Positions 2,566 through 44,561 of a DNA stretch of 64,000 nt are shown one piece after another. Each line of letters begins with the position of its first letter. Within the stretch, counting starts at the first letter, position 1. The position numbers and the translations under genes were made by a program. The notes under the pieces are model-generated. The model did no database searches and was not told the origin of the DNA. It saw only the letters and a program-made list of their open reading frames with translations. This stretch comes from Symbiodinium sp. CCMP2592 (Eukaryota > Sar > Dinophyceae > Suessiales > Symbiodiniaceae), in assembly GCA_905221615.1 (NCBI GenBank), contig CAJNDT010002868.1, positions 510,642 to 574,641 of the forward strand, in the 5' to 3' direction.

Positions 2566-5500
2566 GTCCCGCGCCGGCAAGCGTAAGAGATTTGTCTTTT
2601 TCGTCGCTGCATAGGATTCGGGGCTCTATAGCGCTCAGGGTTTTGGGACTCCTTGCTCAGGCTTTCGACCCTGGCCCCTGCAAACCTCGAAGCTCCAAAT
2701 CTTGAACTCAAAGGAACCCCACCCAGGGCTGTCTCGGAGCTTTCTCGTTGCTTGAATTCGGGTCGATGGTTTCGCGCCACAACACAAGTCGGCTTTAGAG
2801 TTCAGGGTCAAGAGCATCGGTCGATCCGCCCACACACCTCTGAAGCCGAGCTTGACATGTCGCCTCCCGGCTAGCGGCTTGATCAGGCATTAGCTTCCCT
2901 CTGCGCGAAGTCTGAAGCATGCATTCATCACTATTTCTCAGTAAGTTTGTAGCTACGAGTGGGATGCCCCGGTCGTGTGGAGGGATCATCATCTGGTTTC
3001 TCGTTCATGTTCTCACAAACACCGTCGATGGCATCTTCATCATCGTCTGATTGTCGCACCATCACCGCAATTATCGCAACCACAATACCGCACGTCATCC
3101 TCATCACCATCATCCTTCGAGAAGCTCTGAACTTACTGACCGTGTCTTGCCTTTGCCTTGGTATTGGTTGTCATTGCTGTCAGAACGGCTACGACGTTGT
3201 GTTTTTACATGGTGTGAGTTCAGGACGTGGCATGTTCACAGTAAGGCACGAAGGCCAGCTACGACCTTCTGACACTGACGTCGCTCACAAACCCAAGCCT
3301 TAAATCCTCAACCTCTAAGCTTCAGGGTCGCTCTGCAGGTTCGAGTTGCAAGTGGCTTTAGCTTCAGGTATTCAGCCCTAGCCTAATCTTGAAAAGCCCT
3401 CAGCTCTACCTCAGGTCTTCAACTATATGACCCTGCCAGATGCTGCCCGGGCCCTGTGTTTAGGGACATCAGACACAAAAGAGTGGTTTGGGGACTTCGC
3501 GGGTTGTGCTGAAGAGTCTGAACCGTGTATGTGATCGGCTTCACTGCCGAAGCATGAACTCAGCATCCTTCAGGACTTCGCGTGCCCCCGGAGCCTGAGG
3601 TAAACCACAGGCCTTCCTCAACACTGCATTTCACCGAACTTCCTGACAGGGTTTCTCATATACTCTGGTGCAGAGTTTAAGGTCATGGTTCCTCTTCTAG
3701 CCCTACCAATACACAGCATGCCAGGGCCGCCTTGAGTCTCAAGAGGACTGACCTGTGTAGCCCCAACTCCCGAAAACAGATCTGTACTTCATCACATTGA
3801 ACCGGTCTCCGAACCGCAAGACCGACACCAGAACCCAACACGATCAACTCCGGTCACGCAGCCAAACACTGTGCTGACACCTCGAGACCACCTCAGGTGA
3901 ACGCCCTGAAGCGTGTCGTCGGCTTGAAGCCGCGATTTCTGCTCACACATGCCGGGGCCATGTTTCGTTAATGTGGCTAAAGGTTAGGGTTTAGCTTTGG
4001 TCGAGTTGAACAGCTGGAGCTCAAACCTCAAACCCTAAGCCCGTAAATGGCCCACAGAATGTTCCAGGCTGGCAGAGTCTCCTTCCAATCTATCAGGGTT
4101 CTGCAACTTCGGCAGTTGCCGCTTTCAGGGATTCAGAGTTTGCCTCGAACTTGGGGGAAGCGCAGCGGCGTGACAGGATGCCTTCCAGGGCAACCTGGCA
4201 CGCTGTGATCCGCCTGAACTGGTGAGATCACCAAACTGAACCGAAAAATCTCTATGTTTTCCGGCTCGAACCTGTCTTTAGCGATCCTCCTGGTGCATTT
4301 CCGTGAGCAGCCCTTCCTCCACTCGCTGCTCGGATGCAATGAGCGCAGGGTTGTCGGGTTGAGCCCAAGCTTGAAGCGTAGACCAAACCTGCATAAGCCC
4401 TTAGGCAGTAACCCGCTGTTGTTGAGATCAGTTCCTACCCATGACATCCCTTAGGCCCTACATATAGGCGCTTTAAGTCTGGAAGGGCCCAGCCCCAGAG
4501 CTGAAGCCCTTAAGCTCTGGAACCCATCCGACACCCTGCTTGAATTTCGCACTTGAAGCCGGTGTACGGTTGGGCGGAGCGGAGGAGATTATCACATTAG
4601 ATGCCCACGGTCTCGCGTGTAAGACTATACATGACCATACAATTGCAACAGCAACGCATCGTATTCTTCCTTAGCCAGGTAAATCAGTATACTTATACCA
4701 CTATCTATTCCCAACCTTGTCCAGGTTGCTCAGGCCTTTCATTACGAACGAACACGGTTATATTAGGGATGCATGGCTGAAGGTATCTGACAGTGAGTCA
4801 GGATTGGATGGTTTTGAGACTCAGCTGGGCTCATTTTGCAGTTCAACATGACGGTAATCTTAGTCGTGAGCTTTCTTCCAGAATGTTCACACGAATGCCG
4901 CCCAGTGTCTTTTGGCGTTTTGTTGGCTTCAAGAGCAGGGTAGATGTTTAAACTGATTGTGCGCCTGCACTTGTTTCGTTAACCCGCTTGAACACAATTC
5001 CCCGCCCGGACTGTCAGGAGGTCGAGAGTCCCTTTAACCAACTTCTAGATTCAGGAGGCAAGGCAAGAGCCTTGACTCCCAAATGCCAAACTTAGGGGCC
5101 AAAAAAGCACATAAGCATAAGCATTTTACAGGGATATCCCTACCTTATTGGGCTTCATTATAAGGGGGGGTTTATATGGGATATCCCTATCCTAATTTGT
5201 GCTTATGTGCGTTTTGGGGCCCTACAAACGGCTCCCTTCGCAGCCTTAACCCTGAAATCACCACCCTATAGCCCTGACCGGAACAGTGAAATAGATGAAC
5301 CTGTCGCAAAAAGTCCTTGAGATCGCAGTCGCTTTCCACGAAACGCCCTTTTGCGCCGCTCTGAGTCCGCAAGCCTCACACCCTCAGACCCAAACCACAA
5401 TCCAAGCCCCGGGCCCCGACCTCGCCGTACCGATAAAGCAGAAAGCGCTGGTTGCAAGGCTTTCTCTCCAAAGCCATGGCTCTGCGCCGATTCAACGCGG

Positions 5501-24759: not shown

Positions 24760-27700
24760 CATGTATACATGAAGTGTAACTGTGCCCATTGTCAGGACGA
24801 AGAATCTGAGGAGGGAGCTCTCCAGAAGATGGATGAAGGATACGAGAGCGAAGCGCTTGAGAGTGAAGAGTGCTAGACACGAAGGCCAGGGACAACATGT
24901 AGACTTGATGTGTGATGGCATGTACCATGCATATGTTAAGACTAGACGCTTGTACACGTATGGAGGATCAAGGCTGCGATGCTTGGAGATGCAAAGGATG
25001 CGAAGCGAAGCGCTTCAGAGTGAAGAGTGCAAGACACGAAGGCCTGGCATAACATCTAGATGTCATGTGTGCATGCATGCTTCTACCATGCATGTGTTAA
25101 GAATAGATCCTTCTACCTCGATCCATGGAGGAGCAAATTAAGCAAATTCGCTACTTGGACATGCAAAGGATGCGAGTTCTTCAGCTCGCTGTTGCCTGCT
25201 TCTCTCAAAAGGACGGCTCGCTGCACAGGATCTGTCTGCAATGGGTGTGCAATCACATGACAGCATGTGACGCCCCCGGTGCTTGCATGCTGGCAATTTC
25301 AAGTATAAGTATATAGGTTAAATATAATTAATGTATAAGCCCGCACGACCCTTATAATACTTCATCATATATTCGCCTGGAACAATATATGCCCTGAATG
25401 CTATGATGAACCCGGTCCCATCCTATCTTCCTCAAGAATACCTGTGGAGCTATGAAGCTCTCCATGGTCTTGCCGATCCTGCAGTTTATAGCGCAGCTGG
25501 AAAAGCCGGCCCCGATGGAGCAGAATGATTTTGTTTTCCAGCTGCACAGATGCATGGTCATCGATACTCTACTAAGCTATTGCTCTCAGCCCGAAACCCT
25601 AGAACGTAAACCTAGAGCCCTCCACCCTAAACCTTTTACCTTTGATCACTCAATCCTAAACTCTCGATCTGTTGGGCTGTGATCTGAGGTCGAGTTCTGT
25701 GCTGGTGCCGGCGAACTGACGGCTGCATTGGTTGATGCCTTCGACTTCCAGGGGAAGAGATTCGATCTGAATTATTCCAAGAACCACGACTTCTTGCGGA
25801 CTGTGGGATTTTTGGCTGTGTTGGCTGCGGTGTCTTGGCTTTGCTGATCCCCACTGCCGGGCTGTCCCTAGCTAGCGCTACAACCGACGAAGTGCATATG
25901 CTGTTCCCAGGTCAGAAACACTGTTTATGGTGGTCTTCTTATGTGCGCTCCACCATGTTCGAGCTGGATATCTATGTGACTGGTCCGAATTCATAAATGC
26001 ATGTCTGAGGTACTTAAGAAATGCCTCCGCGCACCACCTTCCATCCAGGAGTCGCTCGACGACGAAGAGGAGCGGTCGCAATCCTCAGGGTGAGACGAAG
26101 TACAAGAAAGTTCGGCGGGCCAATGCGTTTGTGGAGCGTTTGTGTTACGTTCTGAGGATAGCACATAAACTAGGAATATTTTGGGTGGTGGAACAGCCTT
26201 CGAGTTCCGTGTCTCGGACATCATATTCGATCGTTGCAGGAAGGAGCTAAGGAGGGAGGAAGGCGCTACGAAACTTGCGGGTTGCCCCCGCTATGCAACA
26301 GGGCTACCAGGAGCGAGGCGCAGGAGCCAGTGACTGTGCTAAACCTCTTCCCCAGATAGCCCTCGGCTTCGCTACCTTGTGGTAGCTAGCAATTTCTAGT
26401 GTTTCACCCTATCCGTGCCTTCGGCAGCTATGGGAGGAAAGGGCAAGGATGCCCAAGCTACACAGCCCAAGGGCAAAGGGCCGGCGGATGGCACCGGCCC
26501 CGCTACGGCCGAAGCGCCCGCTACCGGCGACTACCTGCCGGACACCCTCCGCAATTTGCGGAAGGCGCTACGATTTCGGCCGGCGGACTGTGCCGAAGGT
26601 CTGCCACGCTATCTGGAGAAACCCTTGCTACAGGAATTCATCGCTATGTCCCAGGAGGCGATTGAGACGCTAGACAAGGAGCCCCCACCCCGAAAGTGGC
26701 TGGGGGCCGGGCTACGCCAGCAAAGCCCCGCTAACATGATGGAAAGACGGGTCTTGTCCGCTACCAGCTGGGCTGACCTGTCCCAGGAGGACATCGATAA
26801 CCTCGATGCCGCTATGTCTGCGAGCTTGACGCAAAAGTTCGCCGCTACAGAGGCCGCCGCTGCCGCTGCGAAGTCCCAGCTAGACCAGCTAGCCGCTGCA
26901 AATGCGGCCGCTACGGCTGCCAAAGCCAAGGCCCGCAAGGAGGCCGAGGCAATGGCCGCTAAGATCGCAGCTAAGAAGAAGGCGGAGCACGACCAGAGGG
27001 TCGCTGCGGCCGCGCTAGCAGAGAAGAAGCGGGAGGCCGCAGAGCGGCTCGCTAAGGAAGAGGAGGCCGCCGAGCTCGAGTTCCAGCGCGCGGTGGCCGC
27101 TAGCAAGGCCTCCCTGCAGGCCGCAGAGGAGAGCGCTAGCCGAGACCCAACCGCTACAGGCAGCACCGACCCAGTGCCTGCAGCTACCGGGGCAGCTTCC
27201 ACGCTGGACCCCACGCCGGCCGAGGCTGCCGCTAGAAGGTTCATGGATGCGGGGCCGACAGCGGCTACAGCATCCTTTCCCCGCGCTACCAGTCCGAGCC
27301 GGGGCAGGGCTAGGAGCCCGGGCCGGGGCAAGGGCAAAGACGCTAAGGGCAAGGGCCAGCCCGACGGCAAAGGCCCGCCGCCCGCTAACATCAGCATCTT
27401 CGAGTAGTTTGCCGAGGGGCCAAAGCTATTGGTACCTCGAGCTATCGTGGTCCAGTATCGACCGCGATCTCTGGCCGCTAGGTTCGTGGGACCGCCGCTA
27501 CGAGCTGGGTAAGGGCAAGGGCCCGAACCCTCGCTATGGCAAAGGTGAGGATAACAACCTCACGCTAGAGGCGGTCCACTACGAGGACCACCTCTATGAC
27601 CTCGGCAGGGAGGATGCCGCGCTAATGTGTCGCTATGCCCCTCCGCCGCTTGGCACTCCTGCGGGCGACAGGGCTAGCGAACTGCTAGCCATGCTCTTGC

Positions 27701-30700
27701 CGAGCTGCTACACGCAGTTCCGAACAGGACGCTGCCGCTACTCCCTCGGCCACTGGGACGCTAACGCCGCTATTTTTCGGTGCGCCACTACCTGTGAAGT
27801 GTGCCAGCTAAAAGCCTGTAACAGGCGTATGTGGTTCAAGATAGATGACCACGCTACGCATTGTTGCGACGGCTGCAACCCCTAACACTATCTTAGACTA
27901 TTTTTTGTTTTAAGGCAAAAATTGCCTATATATCTTATTTATTTTTGTCTACGGAATATCTTATTTTTTGGGCCTATATCTTATTTTCGTAGACAAAAAA
28001 TAGCCGAAAAAAATAAGATATATATATCTTATATATACTATTTTTGTAGGCTATTTTTTCGGGGCGCAAAATAGCCTACAGGATATCTTATTTTGCGTCG
28101 ACGCAAAATAAGATATAGGCAAAAAATGGCCGACGGAAACTTCGAGTAAACTTCGGGTTGCGACTCGAAGTTTACTCGAAGTTTACTCGAAACTTCGAGT
28201 TAGGACAACCCGAAGTTTACTCGAAGTTTACCCGAAGTTTACTCGAAGTTTAAGAGACGAAACTCGAAGTTTCGAGTTAGCATGTGTCATTTACCTGGGT
28301 TTTGTAACATCTACATATACAAACTTCGACTTTTGCACTTTGAAACTTCGAGTTAAACTTCGAGTTGCTAAGTCGAAGTTTCGAGTAAACTTCGAGTAAA
28401 CTTCGGGTTCCCGGACAAATTAGCCGACACAAAACTTCGAGTAAACTTCGGGTTGCAGCCAAATCACAACCCGAAGTTTCGAAGAAACTTCGGGTAAAGT
28501 TCGGGTTGCAGGGGCGGCGCAAAATAAGATATATATCTTATTTTGCGCTGGTTTGTAGGCAAAATTTTGCCTATATATCTTATTATTTTGTCTACGGAAT
28601 ATCTTATTTTTTCTGCCTATATCTTATTTTCGTAGACAAAAAATAACCGAAAAAAATAAGATATATATCTTATATACTATTTTCGTAGGCAAATCATTTT
28701 GCCTAGAAACAAAAAATAGTCTAAGATAGTGTTAGGGGCAAGGCCTGGTCCCGGGGCGAGGACTGGGGCGGCCGCTAAATGACGGGCCCTGGGCCCCGCT
28801 AGGGCTTTGACCCCGCTATCGTACAGATGCATGCGGCTACCTTTGCAGCGCCCTCTGCTGCCGACCGCTAGCCGTTGCAAAACAAAGGGCAGCGCTAGTG
28901 TTTGCATGCGCCGGCAGCCCACGCTACACACATGTCGGCAGCCAGAAAGAAGGGAAGAGCTAGAGCGAGAGAGAGTGTTGCACTGCAAGGGGGGGGGCCG
29001 GGATCGGTGGGCTGCTAGGGCTGTCTGCGACTGCAGTGCCTTTTCAGCGAAGCTATCGACGCCACCTCACACACTCTCACGCTAGGCCGCTAGGAGCTTT
29101 TCTCCTTAAAGGCTAGCAATACTCTGTTCTGTGCTTTTCCCTATCAATTTTTGTAAGCCTCGCCCGTGCCTGCTACCATGGCAGAGGCCGAAGCACTAGC
29201 GAAGAAGCTAGCCCTCGGCAGCAGCGAACTTAAGGTTCCTGCTAGTGCAGCACAAAGTCTCGGATGCTATTCAATCCGAGCTCTTTTCCAACGGTATTGA
29301 TACCGTCGCTAAGTTCGCAGCCTCAGCTACGGACGAAGCCGACCTCAAGAAGATGCTAAAGGACAGCTTTGCTATCGAGCCAACCACCTCGCTCGCTAGC
29401 CGTGCTCAGGCAGCGGGGGTCACCATCGCATGGAGGACCGCTAACTCCCGTACCGAGCGGCAAGCGGAGGCGGAAGCTACTAGCGAGGTCAGGGATTGGG
29501 CGAGACAAGCGGAGCGGGCGCCGGGGATGGCGACACCGGCTTAAAAGCTCGAGGTCTATAGGACGCCGACAGGGTGCCTGAAGACCAGCGCGACGGAGGA
29601 CGGCCCAGGCAGGACCCAGCAGTCACGGGCCGGATTGGCGAGACAAAGGACCAAGACGTGCCACTGAGACTGGAGCCCGGCAGTGCCCGCTACCCGAGAC
29701 CTTCCCGACCTGTGAGCCGGAGGGTCCGCGGGTGCTAGGGGGTTCAGGACCACCAAGGACCTGCCAACAGCTAGGTGGCAACAAGAGCTACCATGATGGA
29801 GGAGGACTCTGCTCTCCAGGACGGTGGCCCCACGCTACCCGCACCCAATTGGGACTGGCTGCGGGGGAAGATGATGGAGGTGATCCTCGCTAAGGTGGGC
29901 TCGGAGGCGGAGCTAGAGAAGGAAGCCTTTCGCATGGCTGCAGGTGGGGCTAAGGGCTGCGCCCTAGCTAGCTCCGAAGAACTTCAGGAGCAGCTACGCT
30001 CGATCTGGAAAGAGTGGTTGGAGGCTATAATAACGACCTGGGAGACCCGGAGCTGCTAAAGGTGGCCTCAGGGCAGCCGCTATACCTCCGCCTCATCCGG
30101 GCGCTACTGACCGCGGCCGGCGACCTCGACCGGGACTTCCTCCTCCAGGCCGAGGAGGGGCTACCTGTGGGCGTGAGAGACCCGCTACCGCGCACTCCCC
30201 ACGTCTTTGAGGAGCAGCTAAAGTGGCCCCTGGAAAACGCTCCTTGGGAAGCGGCGCTAGCCTGGGTGCCGAACTACTCCTCGGTGGAGGAATACCGTGA
30301 GTTCGCTACCCAGACCACCGTTCGGATCTATAAAATAGAGCCGCTTGAAGATAAGCAATATAGAGCCGCTGTTGCCAAAATAGAGCCGCAGCTTAAAAAT
30401 GGAGCCGCCAGCCGGCTTCACGAAAATCAGCAAAACAGAGGTAATACGGGGTTTGAGCCAAAACAAGCGATGAGACACGACTGCTGCATATATGCACGAA
30501 TGCATATACTTTTGTGCCGAAAAACGGCAGCAGTTTGTGCTACACAAATCGCAGATGCTCATGATTCTCGCCATTTGTGCCAGGAAACTCGTATTGAGCC
30601 ACAAACTCGCTTGAGCCAACAAAACATTAGGGACATTAGGGTTTTGTATGGTATATGGATGAAACATTTTATGAAAATATAACGAATGGTAAGACAAAGC

Positions 30701-33700
30701 GCACACATCACTGTGTTTGAATGCTCCGGCTTCGGGTTCAGCAGGCTGGGGGCTTTATAGGGTTTGGAGCTGAGGGTTTAGAGCTTACATGTTCAGCCTA
30801 AGCCCTAAACCCCAGACTACGAAGCCCTAAGCGCTCGAGTTAGAGAGTTCAAGGCCTTGGGCTTTTGGGTTTTGGAGCTTCAGGCTTGAGGCTTTGGAGT
30901 CTTCGAGCTTTGGGGCTGGGTGCTTCAAGCCTTCAGAGTCTGGCGGTTTACTGGGTTTGTGCATTTTGTCCTTGAGGCCTAAACCCCAAGCCGACAGTAT
31001 GTTATGCACTGCAATAAAGTTGCAACGGCTTTCGGATTTGAGGAATTCTTCGGTTGGGATTCGGGGGAGTGAGATCTTCCAACATCTTCCGACAATATTT
31101 TCGGTCGTTGAAGCCGCCTTCAGATATTATGGCCCTAAACTCTGAACTTTCAGAGCCCTGTGCCTATGACGGTTTGAGATGTCGAGCTCTGGATCGAAGG
31201 GCTCGAGTCAACACAGACACAAAGACCTGCACACTTACTTCAAACTTGACTTTCGAAGCCAAGATGTAGCACAAGCCTGTCGCCGACCTTAAAACATCCT
31301 TAACCCCTAAACCCAAGAAAACCCAACCCCCAATCCTTGGATTGTTGCTGCTGGCTCTTCTCGATCGGCGGTGCTGGAGCATGCAACTTGGCAGCTGTGC
31401 TGTGGGGCTTTGGCTGACCCTAAACCTTACAACATCTCAATACACAGCTTGGCCCACAGAACACGTCGCATGCAGCGGTGAGATCTAGGTCGGCTTCGCC
31501 GAAAGAGCTTTGCAAGTCGTCCATCATCCTGCGGCAAGAAGTTTACACTCAATAATGTCATGCTTTTCCAGAAGCCCAACCCAAATGTACGAGGAAATCT
31601 TAGAACCTTAGATTCCTAAATTACCCTAAACCTGAAAAGGTCATTTCGGCTTTCGGATTTCGGGTTTAGGTCCCCAAGGGTTGGGTTGAAAATAGCTATA
31701 GCCGTGGGGCCCGTTTCGAAACTCTAAACCCAAGCACATATACATAGCTCACTCCCCCTGGGTAAACCTGATTCAAGATGAAAGGAAAAATGCCGACAGC
31801 CCTTATCTTCGGATTCATCTTATATAATAAGGTTTGAAAACCGTGCCTCCAGAGCAATCCATGCCATCGCCAGTTCGCGACTCCGCTTTCACGGTTTCCA
31901 AAATCTGAAGTTTGCGATAGACAGCATAAGCCCAGCCTCGTCTGTGCACCGACCGACAGACTCTGGCAATCGCCCCATTGTAAGACTCATCCACGTATGT
32001 TGTGTATGTTCGCGGGTTGCCCTGTTCGACAGACCTCTGGATGCAGTGGTACATCAAATGGGCTTTGGGCAATATCGGAAGGCCAGCACGATTGCACAGT
32101 ACGATGAAGCGGTTGTAATGCATCAGCATCTCTTCGGCAGCTCCTTCATCGATTTGTCGGCCATGTCTGGCCAGCACAGCATCAAAAGCCAGGGCACTTT
32201 GCCCGGCGTGTCGCAAAAGCTCAAAAAACAACTGGTCCTGTTCGCTGCCGCTGGTCGACAGCTGATGACTGTACTTTTGCAACATCTCACACACGAATGC
32301 GAGCAATCCGTGCGTCTCGGCCGCTTTGGCTTTCAAGTGCTTCTCCGCAAGCATCGAAAGCGTCAGATTCCAGACCTGGGCAGGGGTTGGCACCGAAAAG
32401 TTTTGTTATGATTCTAAAAAAAGTTTTAGAATTATAGGGTTCAGGGGTCAAGGTTTGGACATGTGCGGGGCCTCGGAGCCCTTCTTCGACCAGTTCGGGT
32501 CAGTTTGCCGTCGCAGCTTGTAGTGGCTTTGTAGTTCAGCTCTCATGCAGAGCAAAGAAAGTTTGTTGAGCTCTTCTTTGTCTAGCCCCACGATTGATGG
32601 CTTCCAAATGTCAGTGTCCAAAAACCTTCTCAAAGTCACTGTGATAAAGGTAGATAGCGGCCCAAAATGCCACGTGTGAAGAAGGTCAATATTCCATGTG
32701 GCAAGGCTGACACCAGGTATCCGAAGAAAAGGGCTGTCGTGCAAAACCCTTCCATGCTCACCACCAAGGTAAAACTGGCAGATAAAGGGAGTAGTCATGC
32801 TATCGAAAAGTGCAACATCAGGCATTGCAGCTGACGGCTCCAGGCGGCTGCCCTTCGGGAGGCCCAGAGCAGGGAAAGCCTTCGACAAAGTTCGGCCCCG
32901 GGTCTTTCGGCGATAAATCAAAATCCTATAGAGCTTCTGCCGCATGTCGTCGTTGGCGACGGTGACTTCCTTCTGGGACATTGAGGGTTTAGGGTTCATT
33001 TCAGGGTTTAGGGCTTAAGGCTCCAAAGAAGTTGCTAAAAAAACCCTAACAAACTCGACCCTAAAACCACCAGCCTTGAAGTTCTGTCTCATGTACTGGT
33101 TCATTGCAGCATCGTCAAACAGTGGATACGGGCACGTCCTCAGAGTCCAGTTGCCCAGCACTTCAGTGAGTTGAGATTTCTTGCAGAGGCAGCACGGGCA
33201 ACAGTGTTCATTGTGACTCCAGGTTCGCAGACCACAAATTTCGGCCAAGGCTGGCCAATCGGCCTTAAAATCAACCACTGCCAGCCGTAGATCTTCATGG
33301 CTAGCAGAAACATCCTCGCGGAAAGCCTCCAGGAGTGGCCAGACGGAGCACCAGCCCCTGCAGCCGCACTGGCATAGATCTGAGAGTCCTGCCAATAATC
33401 GTTCCCTTAAACCATAGACTCCCTAGAGCCCTAGACCCTATAGACCCTAAGCCCCAAGCCCTATAGAAAAGCTAGAAACAATTTCTTGGAAAGCAAGACA
33501 CTGAGCAGCCAGACGAGTCGCTGTTGTTTTGGTGTCCGGAGATTAGTAATATAAAATCCCAAGAAGTTCTCGTTCTTGCTGTACTGGACACCATCAAAGT
33601 AAACAGATATTGGCACGACACACTCGCGGGGAATCCCTTCGCTCAGGGCTTGCACTGTGACCGGGTGCTTTTCGTAGCGGTCGCCAAGATCTCTATCATT

Positions 33701-42190: not shown

Positions 42191-44561
42191 CATATTCCTG
42201 CGCCCGTCGATTCACGAGGCCAGTTGAGCTTCTTCGTGCCTTAATCTTCAACCAACTACCAGAAATCCTGAACCCAACAACCCGCAAACCCTCAACCCTG
42301 AAACCTTACACCTTCCTAGAAGATTTAAAACTCACCTCCCAGCTTTAAAATCTTAAGTTCTATAAACCCTTGTATCATTAAATTCGTTCGTGGGGAACGC
42401 CACTCAATCATGATTCTAGACGAGGAGTCTGGGATTTCACTCAGATGTGATTGCCAAAGAAGGTCGCTTGCATGTGTGTTCACTAGTGGTAATATAATGT
42501 ATCTACCTATAAATTGACCACCACCCATCTAACTCCCTTGATCCCTGAACCCAAAAACCCTTGGGCCCTAAAACCCTAAACTCGGAACCCCATAACCCTA
42601 AAAACCCTTAATATATTATTTAAATTAATATATATATATATATGTATACATGCATATATATATGGCAAAAGTAGTGCTCGACAGCCTCCTGCATGGAAGG
42701 AGGTTCGGCCGCAGAAGACTGAGGAGCCCAAGCCAAAGAAGGACGAACCCAAGCCGAAGGACACGGAGAAGCCAAAGCCAAAGGACTCGGAGAAGCCAAA
42801 GCCCAAGGAGACGGAGAAGCCAAAGCCCAAGGACACGGAGAAGCCAAAGCCCAAGGACTCGGAGAAGCCAGAGCCCAAGGACGAGAAGCCAAGGCCGAAG
42901 GACGAGAAGCCAAAGCCCAAGGACACGGAGAAGTCAAAGCCGAAGGACGAGAAGCCACAGCCCAAGGACTCGGAGAAGCCAAAGCCCAAGGACGAGAAGC
43001 CAAAGCCGAAGGACACGGAGAAGCCAAAGCCGAAGGACACGGAGAAGCCAAAGCCCAAGGAGACGGAGAAGCCAAAGCCCAAGGACTCGGAGAAGCCAAA
43101 GCCCAAGGACTCGGAGAAGCCAAAGCCCAAGGACACGGAGAAGCCAAAGCCCAAGGACTCGGAGAAGCCAGAGCCCAAGGACTCGGAGAAGCCTAAGCCC
43201 AAGGACACGGAGAAGTCTAAGCCGAAGGACACGGAGAAGCCAAAGCCACAGGACTCGGAGAAGCCAAAGCCCAAGGACGAGAAGCCGAAGCCGAAGGACA
43301 CGGAGAAGCCAAAGCCCAAGGAGACGGAGAAGCCAAAGCCCAAGGACGAGAAGCCAAAGCCGAAGGACGAGAAGCCAAAGCCCAAGGACACGGAGAAGTC
43401 AAAGTCGAAGGACGAGAAGCCACAGCCCAAGGACTCGGAGAAGCCAAAGCCCAAGGACGAGAAGCCAAAGCCGAACGACACGGAGAAGCCAAAGCCCAAG
43501 GAGACGGACAAGCCAAAGCCCAAGGACGACAAGCCAAAGCCGAAGGACACGGAGAAGCCAAAGCCCAAGGAGACGGAGGATCCAAAGCCGAAGATCGAGA
43601 AGCCAAAGCCGAAGGTTACGGAGAAGCTAAAGCCTAAGGACACGGAGGAGCCAAAGCCGAAGAACGAGAAGCCAAAGCCGAAGGACACGGAGAAGCCAAA
43701 GGCAAAGGACACGGAGGAGCCAAAGACGAAGCGCAAGGCTGATCCGGCGCCAATCGAGAGGCGTGTGCGCCAGAAGTCTTCGCCCCGCAAGGCCCGTGGG
43801 TGTATAAGGTTGAGGCTTTAATGGGTCCACATCATGTCCATCTTTAGCGATCGCATATATAATTTAAGTTTTGTTAATATTATATAATACCTGCATGGTA
43901 TATGCCTGCGAGGTTATGTTTATAGGTATATCCTTGTAACGTGGATCAATCTACGTTCGCTTTGCATATCCAATAGCTACCGCCCTGATCCAAGCCATCC
44001 CGAATAACGTGTGCATGTACGTCAATTTCCATATTTGTGGTCACTGTATAGTTCGAACCAGGGAACCCTAGCTAATCCATAATTAAAGTTACTCTCCCCA
44101 GTATATACCAGCCCGACCCATCCCGAAAAATGTGTGCATGTGCAAGAGCTATTCTGATCATCGATCGTCGATATGTCGGAGCCTTAAATATAACCCCGCT
44201 TAAGCATTCCCCTCAAAACACACTTCCTAAGCGAACATCCCGCTAGACGGACGAAACCCTAAACCCAGAGCCAAATCGAGACGAAGTGTACCAATACGCC
44301 CATAACAGTAATTTAATAATACAGTCGCGATGTGTATACAAATTTGTTTGGAAAGCACGAGATATCGAGATCCTTCTTGGGGCGGACTGTGGCATGCAGT
44401 AGAAACTAGCAACGCTGTCTGGGTATATATTGCCTGGTGAGACTCGGTATCCTACTGCGGTATATTGCATGCATGCATGTATAGATCCTCATTATTAATC
44501 TAAGCTGGCACGGTCCTTATATATACTTGTTCCCTAGTAGTGGAAACCGAAATGCCGCGGC

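Follow-up and report, generated by a model that had tools for sequence, protein, structure and literature searches.

Evenly spaced GCTA words on the sense strand of a DIRS-like retrotransposon from the dinoflagellate Symbiodinium

A stretch of 64,000 nucleotides (nt) from contig CAJNDT010002868.1 of Symbiodinium sp. CCMP2592 (hereafter the window) was analyzed, and the genome searched alongside it comprised 1.1 Gb. In that genome the dinoflagellate spliced leader occurs 429 times and its reversed control 0 times, in keeping with a dinoflagellate host. The window harbors a broken copy of a DIRS-like retrotransposon of this dinoflagellate, in which the tetranucleotide GCTA recurs on the sense strand at a nearly regular pitch. 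The copy is made up as follows, ORF standing for open reading frame, MTase for methyltransferase, RT for reverse transcriptase and L012 for a reference copy elsewhere in the genome:

26236..27878, forward strand: 5' part of the broken copy, dense in GCTA, with a leader outside coding sequence and the Gag-like Ala-rich ORF, 54 GCTA
27879..28738, no strand assigned: later-inserted transposon with terminal inverted repeats, 2 GCTA
28739..29505, forward strand: continuation with the end of the Gag-like ORF, a non-coding spacer and the start of the CCCH-finger ORF, 24 GCTA
29506..29673, no strand assigned: GCTA-free stretch left unaligned to the L012 copy, 0 GCTA
29674..30308, forward strand: terminal part of the MTase-like/Pol ORF, reaching the RT start, with truncation of the copy at 30308, 19 GCTA

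The Gag-like Ala-rich ORF occupies 26430-27407 and is followed by a Cys-rich portion up to 27878; over 26236-27878 the nucleotide identity to L012 is 75-80%. The start of the CCCH-finger ORF lies at about 29166-29505 and is split over two frames. At 29506-29673, about 1.8 kb of the L012 reference is missing, namely the remainder of the CCCH ORF together with the first part of the MTase-like ORF, and 29674-30308 is 92.5% identical to L012. Only the Gag-like part, the CCCH ORF start and the MTase/RT boundary survive in the window copy. The inserted transposon has terminal inverted repeats beginning CCCCTAACAC... (CCCCTAACACTATCTTAGACTA...) and CAA on both flanks (27876-27878 and 28739-28741); it is AT-rich, lies inside the Gag-like ORF and contains numerous internal CGAAGTTT-type repeats. 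A Pfam search with nine window ORFs gave no match at E 0.01, and an Rfam scan of the window gave none at the gathering threshold.

A first-pass annotation, made from the letters alone, had described a retroelement-like segment with about 47 GCTA between 26427 and 27853. We counted 46, with gaps of 9-57 nt (mean 30.7 nt, coefficient of variation (CV) 0.41). Its estimate of roughly eight times the chance rate compares with an excess of 8.6-10.1 fold over base composition and of 3.6-4.1 fold over dinucleotide-preserving shuffles; the latter value is smaller because GCTA itself raises GC, CT and TA. In 300 such shuffles of 26236-27878, 14.0 GCTA were expected (standard deviation (sd) 2.9, maximum 23), as compared to the 54 found. 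The density was said to continue downstream, and it does so at 28739-29505 (24 vs 6.7 in shuffles) and at 29674-30308 (19 vs 4.6), while the gap placed near 29480-29685 corresponds to 29506-29673 (0 vs 0.4) and the transposon, described as lacking the word, holds 2 GCTA vs 3.2. The spacing had also been called more even than random, and for 26236-27878 a CV as low was reached in 0 of 20,000 random placements. Most TpA in 26427-27853 (46/59) lie inside GCTA and all six TAGC there are part of GCTAGC, again in line with the first description. The window without 26001-31000 contains 161 GCTA in 59,000 nt.

To this copy others could be added by a DNA search with window positions 26427-27407, in which all 40 scored of 170 candidates matched, the 39 outside the window at 77-83% identity. 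Twenty other copies were read, each over up to 10 kb. A lack of the word in other copies, which the first-pass annotation had named as a refutation, was not observed: a GCTA-dense stretch (no fewer than 41 GCTA, mostly 6-10 in each 250 nt) was present in 20/20, with a sharp edge in copies having an intact 5' end. A full-length copy of 10,347 nt was found on contig C906 (87287 to 97633). Its boundaries are formed by split direct repeats arranged as A1-coding-B1-A2-B2, which refines the earlier designation as retroelement-like to DIRS-like. The A repeat is 229 nt long (L012 1288-1516 and L029 1297-1524, one copy examined) and the B repeat 77 nt (L029 1221-1297 and 1658-1734, one copy examined).

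The ORFs of the C906 copy and of L015 encode a product of 228 aa, a second one resembling tyrosine recombinases, a Gag-like Ala-rich protein that ends in a Cys-rich portion, another protein combining a CCCH finger and zinc knuckle, an MTase-like domain and an RT-RNase H, these names being assigned from motifs by eye with weak Pfam support. In the RT-RNase H of this main family, LLYADDLE, YTDAKAE, ALELLA, YTDNQSN and NQLADDLTN were recognized by eye, motifs which we take to be DIRS-like; Pfam RVT_3 was below its cut-off, and a PDB match of the RT ORF to alpha-crystallin (E 0.005) was judged to be due to chance. The 623-aa ORF contains LRWSDL, HSERS and GRWKPEGSDVYAR, read by eye as the R, HxxR and Y of a tyrosine recombinase, and had no Pfam match at E 1 and just a chance match in PDB (E 1.1). 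Searches of IMG/VR with the RT, MTase-like and CCCH ORFs confirmed no relatives, and two weak matches of the MTase-like ORF in a phage collection were also judged to be chance. The element resembles SymbioDIRS and SymbioDIRS-Dnmt3 of Symbiodinium, which according to excerpts of the original report have a dinoflagellate host, the order A-coding-B-A-B, a tyrosine recombinase ORF and a Pol with RT-RNase H and a methylase domain (PMC5890265). It differs from SymbioDIRS-Dnmt3 in that its methylase-like domain stays below the Pfam cut-off and that the Cys is gone in a sister family described below, and no such word is mentioned for SymbioDIRS in those excerpts (PMC5890265). We conclude that the element belongs to the DIRS-like group near SymbioDIRS, its putative recombinase being recognized only by motif.

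Along the C906 copy, 334 GCTA are spread over the 10,347 nt with a mean gap of 30.9 nt (CV 0.47), and only 7/332 gaps exceed 60 nt. Counts per 250 nt have a variance-to-mean ratio of 0.26, and for the first 8.6 kb none of 20,000 random placements was equally even. In nearly the same stretch 335 of 445 TpA are within GCTA. TAGC is not raised; this copy has 51, of which 35 are inside GCTAGC. The word is confined to the element and to its sense strand and is found in coding as well as non-coding parts; the non-coding sequence of L012 has 39 GCTA in 1,330 nt and its last 638 nt have 26, a density about equal to that of coding sequence. In the C906 copy the flanks of the word carry little information, save for a C preceding it in 47% of cases, and a helical 10-bp period was not seen in the distances between GCTA pairs. 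Genome-wide, three GCTA at 15-45 nt spacing occur at 192,500 places, as against 77,215 when the pattern is reversed; since microsatellites make up many of the listed places, no copy count was drawn from this number.

Some features of the copies lie beside the word. Between the recombinase and Gag ORFs, L012 has at about 3999-4123 two tracts, one CT-rich and one of G, with a polypurine flank; they recur at the same place in 9/10 copies compared and possibly represent a central polypurine tract. The longest G run measures 53-71 nt in 16/20 copies and is shorter in L009, L010, L017 and L028. The longest word-free gap of L012, 124 nt, holds the long G tract and polypurine flank. An island of the word GTAC beside L009 (L009 1-2500) proved to be a 62-bp GTAC-rich satellite adjoining the element copy.

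Five ORFs from other copies were then compared with 300 synonymous shuffles using the same codons. GCTA is about twice as frequent as in the shuffles (recombinase: 57 vs 27.1, sd 3.5), and the CV of the spacing is 0.35-0.53 vs 0.80-0.87. Accordingly, the objection raised in the first-pass annotation, that shuffled codons might reproduce density and spacing, does not hold. An origin by chance from codon usage, amino-acid repeats or a tandem repeat could appeal to the many GCN codons of the Ala-rich Gag ORF; however, on shuffling the evenness disappears and the count stays below half of that observed in 5/5 ORFs, and the non-coding parts are equally dense, so that this origin is excluded by the shuffles and keeps virtually no probability. 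Codon choice is bent toward GCTA in all three frames, in agreement with the claim that the word ignores the reading frame: the Ala codon GCT is used in 123/151 cases before A and in 23/195 before other bases, the Leu codon CTA in 95/153 cases after G and in 5/133 after other bases, and Cys, Gly, Arg and Ser codons end in GC in 33/35 cases before Tyr and in 171/567 otherwise. The decisive result came from the use of possible GCTA sites in relation to the gap that would otherwise be left. Use amounted to 5/33 sites for gaps below 30 nt, 15/36 for 30-40 nt, 37/60 for 40-50 nt, 62/69 for 50-60 nt and 132/141 for larger gaps. Because the use of a possible site depends on need, the spacing is under selection, and synonymous choice holds most gaps below about 50-60 nt.

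Conservation was followed in an alignment of 17 copies (L010, L027 and L028 were left out as broken), from which the 65 of 136 pairs that are 92-95% identical were used. GCTA was kept in 0.963 of cells vs 0.796 for all tetramers. Between two subfamilies, fixed differences are about four times rarer inside GCTA (8/1026 columns) than outside (190/6449), and the more distant window copy keeps 150/186 GCTA cells vs 0.53 for all tetramers. These numbers bear on the possibility that a mutational bias or a base-modification context, for example hydroxymethyluracil (hmU), makes and keeps the word. Such a process would be in line with the rarity of TpA outside the word (110/445), with differences at GCTA being mostly one-step neighbors (GCCA, GCTG, GCGA, GCAA), with recent singletons inside GCTA lying slightly below expectation and with early studies that placed the hmU of another dinoflagellate in TA and TC contexts, as retold in the part of PMC11071213 at hand. 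It does not explain why site use depends on the distance to the next word, why fixed changes are so rare inside GCTA, why the word varies by family or why the strands are asymmetric. For hmU, a mark on double-stranded DNA would have no need to keep to a single strand, and in Breviolum minutum hmU showed no sequence preference on chemical mapping, again according to the part at hand of PMC11071213. An element-specific mutational process, one of the causes listed in the first-pass annotation, is thus not supported, in view of site use and of the retention of GCTA far above other tetramers between lineages. The suggestion of hmU is weakened, also because sister families in one nucleus differ in word. 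Together these explanations are strongly disfavored and are left with a very slight chance.

To place the main family among its relatives, the RNase H motif pattern NQxADxLTN was used, which occurs at 471 genomic places (control: 1). From the first 100 places listed, seven further motif types were chosen, one copy each. L037 and L038 had no RT match, were taken as chance pattern matches and were dropped. The other five, L032-L036, encode related Pol proteins (31-50% identity), to whose ORFs the main-family RT is related by tblastn. Judged from one 3.3-kb Pol stretch each, these families are word-less: they contain 3-11 GCTA per 3.3 kb vs 105 in the main family, their strongest tetramer reaches z ≤7.3 vs 27.7, and GCTA was not raised over synonymous shuffles in any of the five (z -1.7 to 1.5).

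A different picture was obtained for L040, the RT of which is 74% identical to that of the main family and the word of which is GG[A/C]TA. L040 contains 36 GCTA and 27 GATA per 2 kb, other NNTA words numbering at most 4; across L040, L043 and L044, GCTA amounts to 35-37 and GATA to 25-28 per 2 kb, and their union to one per 31-33 nt (union CV 0.55 in L043 and 0.61 in L044). Taken alone, GCTA in L040 leaves gaps up to 174 nt (CV 0.69) and GATA gaps up to 243 nt (CV 0.91), and the union occurs once per 31.7 nt with CV 0.52 and a largest gap of 84 nt. The evenness of the union in the L040 ORF was reached in 0/300 synonymous shuffles; in a separate set of 500 the minimum CV was 0.44 vs 0.54 observed. 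L046, covering 4 kb upstream in this sister family, has 131 G[A/C]TA (mean gap 30.5 nt, CV 0.56, largest gap 125 nt), 101/131 with a G directly before the word. The Ile codon ATA is used in L040 in 15/21 cases after G and in 0/12 after other bases, and in the main family in 0/7 after G. Over synonymous shuffles, GCTA has z 6.0 and GATA z 5.1 in L040, vs 8.8 and -2.5 in the main family. Possible sites were used in 18/58 cases at gaps below 40 nt and in 63/72 above 60 nt, a dependence less sharp than in the main family. Of 518 candidates for further copies of L040, 40 were scored and all match at 98-100% identity, so that this family numbers at least 40 copies and was recently active. Thus density and evenness persist, although the word itself changes and its positions are replaced.

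This comparison also bears on a host factor reading the word in nascent transcript or DNA, with a role in export, anti-silencing, anti-termination or licensing. The spread of the word over the whole element, independent of coding, would suit such a factor, and periodic An/Tn clusters (PATCs) of C. elegans provide a precedent of a dispersed pattern preventing silencing, according to excerpts of PMC7725773. Yet two sister families in one nucleus differ in word at equal spacing, and five other families with long Pol ORFs manage without one, which makes a host reader improbable.

The families differ as well in the domain N-terminal to the RT in Pol. The MTase-like domain is present in the two word-bearing families covered for this region (main family and L046) and is 51% identical between them. 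At that position L032-L036 show HKD/HRD motifs in a stretch that by eye looks 2-oxoglutarate-oxygenase-like and has no Pfam match in the two tested, L032 and L034. The main rival as reader would be this MTase-like domain, which may bind, or once have modified, the word in RNA or in minus-strand complementary DNA (cDNA), thereby marking or tethering the element's own nucleic acid in reverse transcription. Besides the company of domain and word, the two words share a cytosine in minus-strand cDNA, TA[G/T]C, and SymbioDIRS-Dnmt3 elements carry a DNMT in Pol that was proposed to methylate their cDNA, as stated in excerpts of PMC5890265. On the other side, the similarity to C5 methylases is weak: PF00145 gave E 0.11 for the main family, below the Pfam cut-off, the PDB match to a tRNA C38 methyltransferase (chain 9hgm) had E 1.6, and the L046 region had no Pfam match at E 1. 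The Cys of the PPC motif, at the place of the catalytic Cys, is present in 6/6 main-family copies tested, whereas 80/80 genomic pattern matches of the sister-family domain (L046 3121 onward) have Val there; the latter is a conserved, probably non-methylating methylase-like domain. Additional subfamilies are indicated, by a motif only, at C19:59768, C4446:1501328, C62:108059 and C349:149953. Moreover, the middle C of the sister word can be A, and the association of domain and word rests on one clade. We therefore regard the MTase-like domain as an unlikely reader, while keeping it in view.

Cleavage by RNase H offers another use for such words, which would be preferred cut sites, one per about 50 nt, clearing the RNA template off the first cDNA strand. 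We know of no precedent for an RNase H with so strict a need for four bases, and related RT-RNase H proteins occur in the five word-less families, where the word is missing. That the word is strand-specific and frame-independent, needs a maximum gap and tolerates redundancy speaks for cut sites, as does the G tract with polypurine flank in the 124-nt gap of L012. HIV-1 RNase H has mild preferences for A/U at +1, G/C at -2 and C, G or U at -4, of which the first two are met by G[C/A]^UA (PMC5766924, in part). On balance, cut sites are a rather doubtful explanation.

What is favored is a reader encoded by the element. Since the word acts on one strand, it would be read in RNA, single-stranded cDNA or an RNA:cDNA hybrid; since it differs between sister families in one nucleus, word and reader must change together, which points to an element-encoded reader. 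That word and spacing evolve separately likewise argues for such a reader on RNA or single-stranded cDNA. From sequence data, GCTA is thus probably, though by no means surely, a cis-acting, strand-specific self-tag at the RNA level, a class in which the MTase-like and RNase H readings are included. Among the causes listed initially, a bound protein or RNA motif is accordingly the one preferred, the word being strand-specific, selected for spacing and variable between sister families.

In capsids, RNA is bound at about one subunit for every 20-60 nt. Gag may be the reader, a tentative assignment to which we give distinctly less than an even chance; it would be either the Cys-rich Gag-like protein or the second protein with CCCH finger and zinc knuckle. 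It would coat the genomic RNA with roughly one subunit per word, and this coating would tell own RNA from cell RNA and from sister-family RNA at particle assembly. Gag is favored because a coat would explain both the constant pitch and the tolerance of redundancy. Among the proteins compared between main and sister family, identity is lowest for the Cys-rich Gag-like one (27% over 177 aligned residues) and amounts to 54% for the CCCH-knuckle protein; the CCCH finger of L046 passes the Pfam cut-off (PF00642, E 2.1e-4). In a wider form, for which the chance seems to us to fall a little short of even, each family would punctuate its whole RNA genome with a private word of 4-5 letters at a pitch of about 31 nt. 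Word and element-encoded reader would co-evolve (GCTA vs GG[A/C]TA), the particle would fix a constant pitch, and cross-packaging and cross-copying would be avoided.

Several observations weigh against this interpretation. Recent singletons inside GCTA are only weakly fewer than expected (19 vs 27.2, p 0.10), which fits near-neutral decay of inserted copies and also weak mutational protection. The main-family CCCH finger is below Pfam's cut-off, and a Gag reader leaves the company of MTase-like domain and word unexplained. In L041 (RT 72-78% identical), the Pol ORF of which is broken in the copy read, 47 GCTA per 2 kb correspond to one per 42.6 nt (CV 0.42), not 31, and a pitch of 33.9 nt is obtained only with CCTA and TCTA added post hoc. 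Only one word shift is documented. Leu and Ile codons alone show no avoidance of close words in the sister family (7/12 used below 30 nt), and main-family word places are retained in L040 in 15/53 cases, hardly above tetramers at large (0.23). Finally, CTT exceeds synonymous shuffles in the Pol ORFs of 5/5 word-less families (z 2.6-5.0) in all three frames and is not raised in three GCTA-branch families (z 0.4-1.3). It is evenly spaced in L032 only, where 1/300 shuffles was as even, the other four giving 48, 287, 156 and 195 of 300, and it may represent a weak second word or a codon-context effect.

In comparison with known systems, the novel part is the word code, the element class itself being known; in a limited search of the open-access literature, no description of a comparable GCTA or other evenly spaced word mark in retrotransposons was found. 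Packaging signals of single-stranded RNA viruses are stem-loops with a degenerate motif. They are alike in placing many copies of a short recognition motif across a coding genome, as seen from excerpts of PMC6281560. Here, by contrast, the motif is a linear tetramer of near-constant density over 10 kb, and binding by Gag is only putative. The retroviral nucleocapsid is a zinc-finger protein that reads about four bases of genomic RNA, concentrated in the packaging signal; zinc finger and motif length are similar, but the word described here is spread everywhere. PATCs are non-coding, have a helical period and lie in host genes. They share with GCTA a dispersed short pattern, which guards against silencing (PMC7725773, in part), and the present word differs by being mostly coding, strand-specific and without visible 10-bp period.

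A retroelement in which synonymous choice over most of 10 kb follows a one-strand spacing rule provides strong evidence for a genome-wide RNA-level code in a mobile element. With two natural families of different word and same pitch, self-recognition of retroelement RNA becomes testable, and by means of the word such elements can be found and classified from sequence only. In genomes of this kind, codon statistics and dN/dS call for caution, as they can carry a strong second constraint.

Two further observations were made in passing. Of the element, L039, L042 and L045 hold just the RNase H end, and they were kept outside the density comparison. At these three loci the end follows a similar junction (ENSTSKKEALVKK in L042 and L045, EHSTSKKEALVKK in L039), with an RNase H-like ORF of another element lying upstream, and the arrangement looks as if a chimeric element had formed and spread. 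In the window, 42500-44000 is repeat-like, with AGCC, AAGC and CCAA in excess and long ORFs on both strands.

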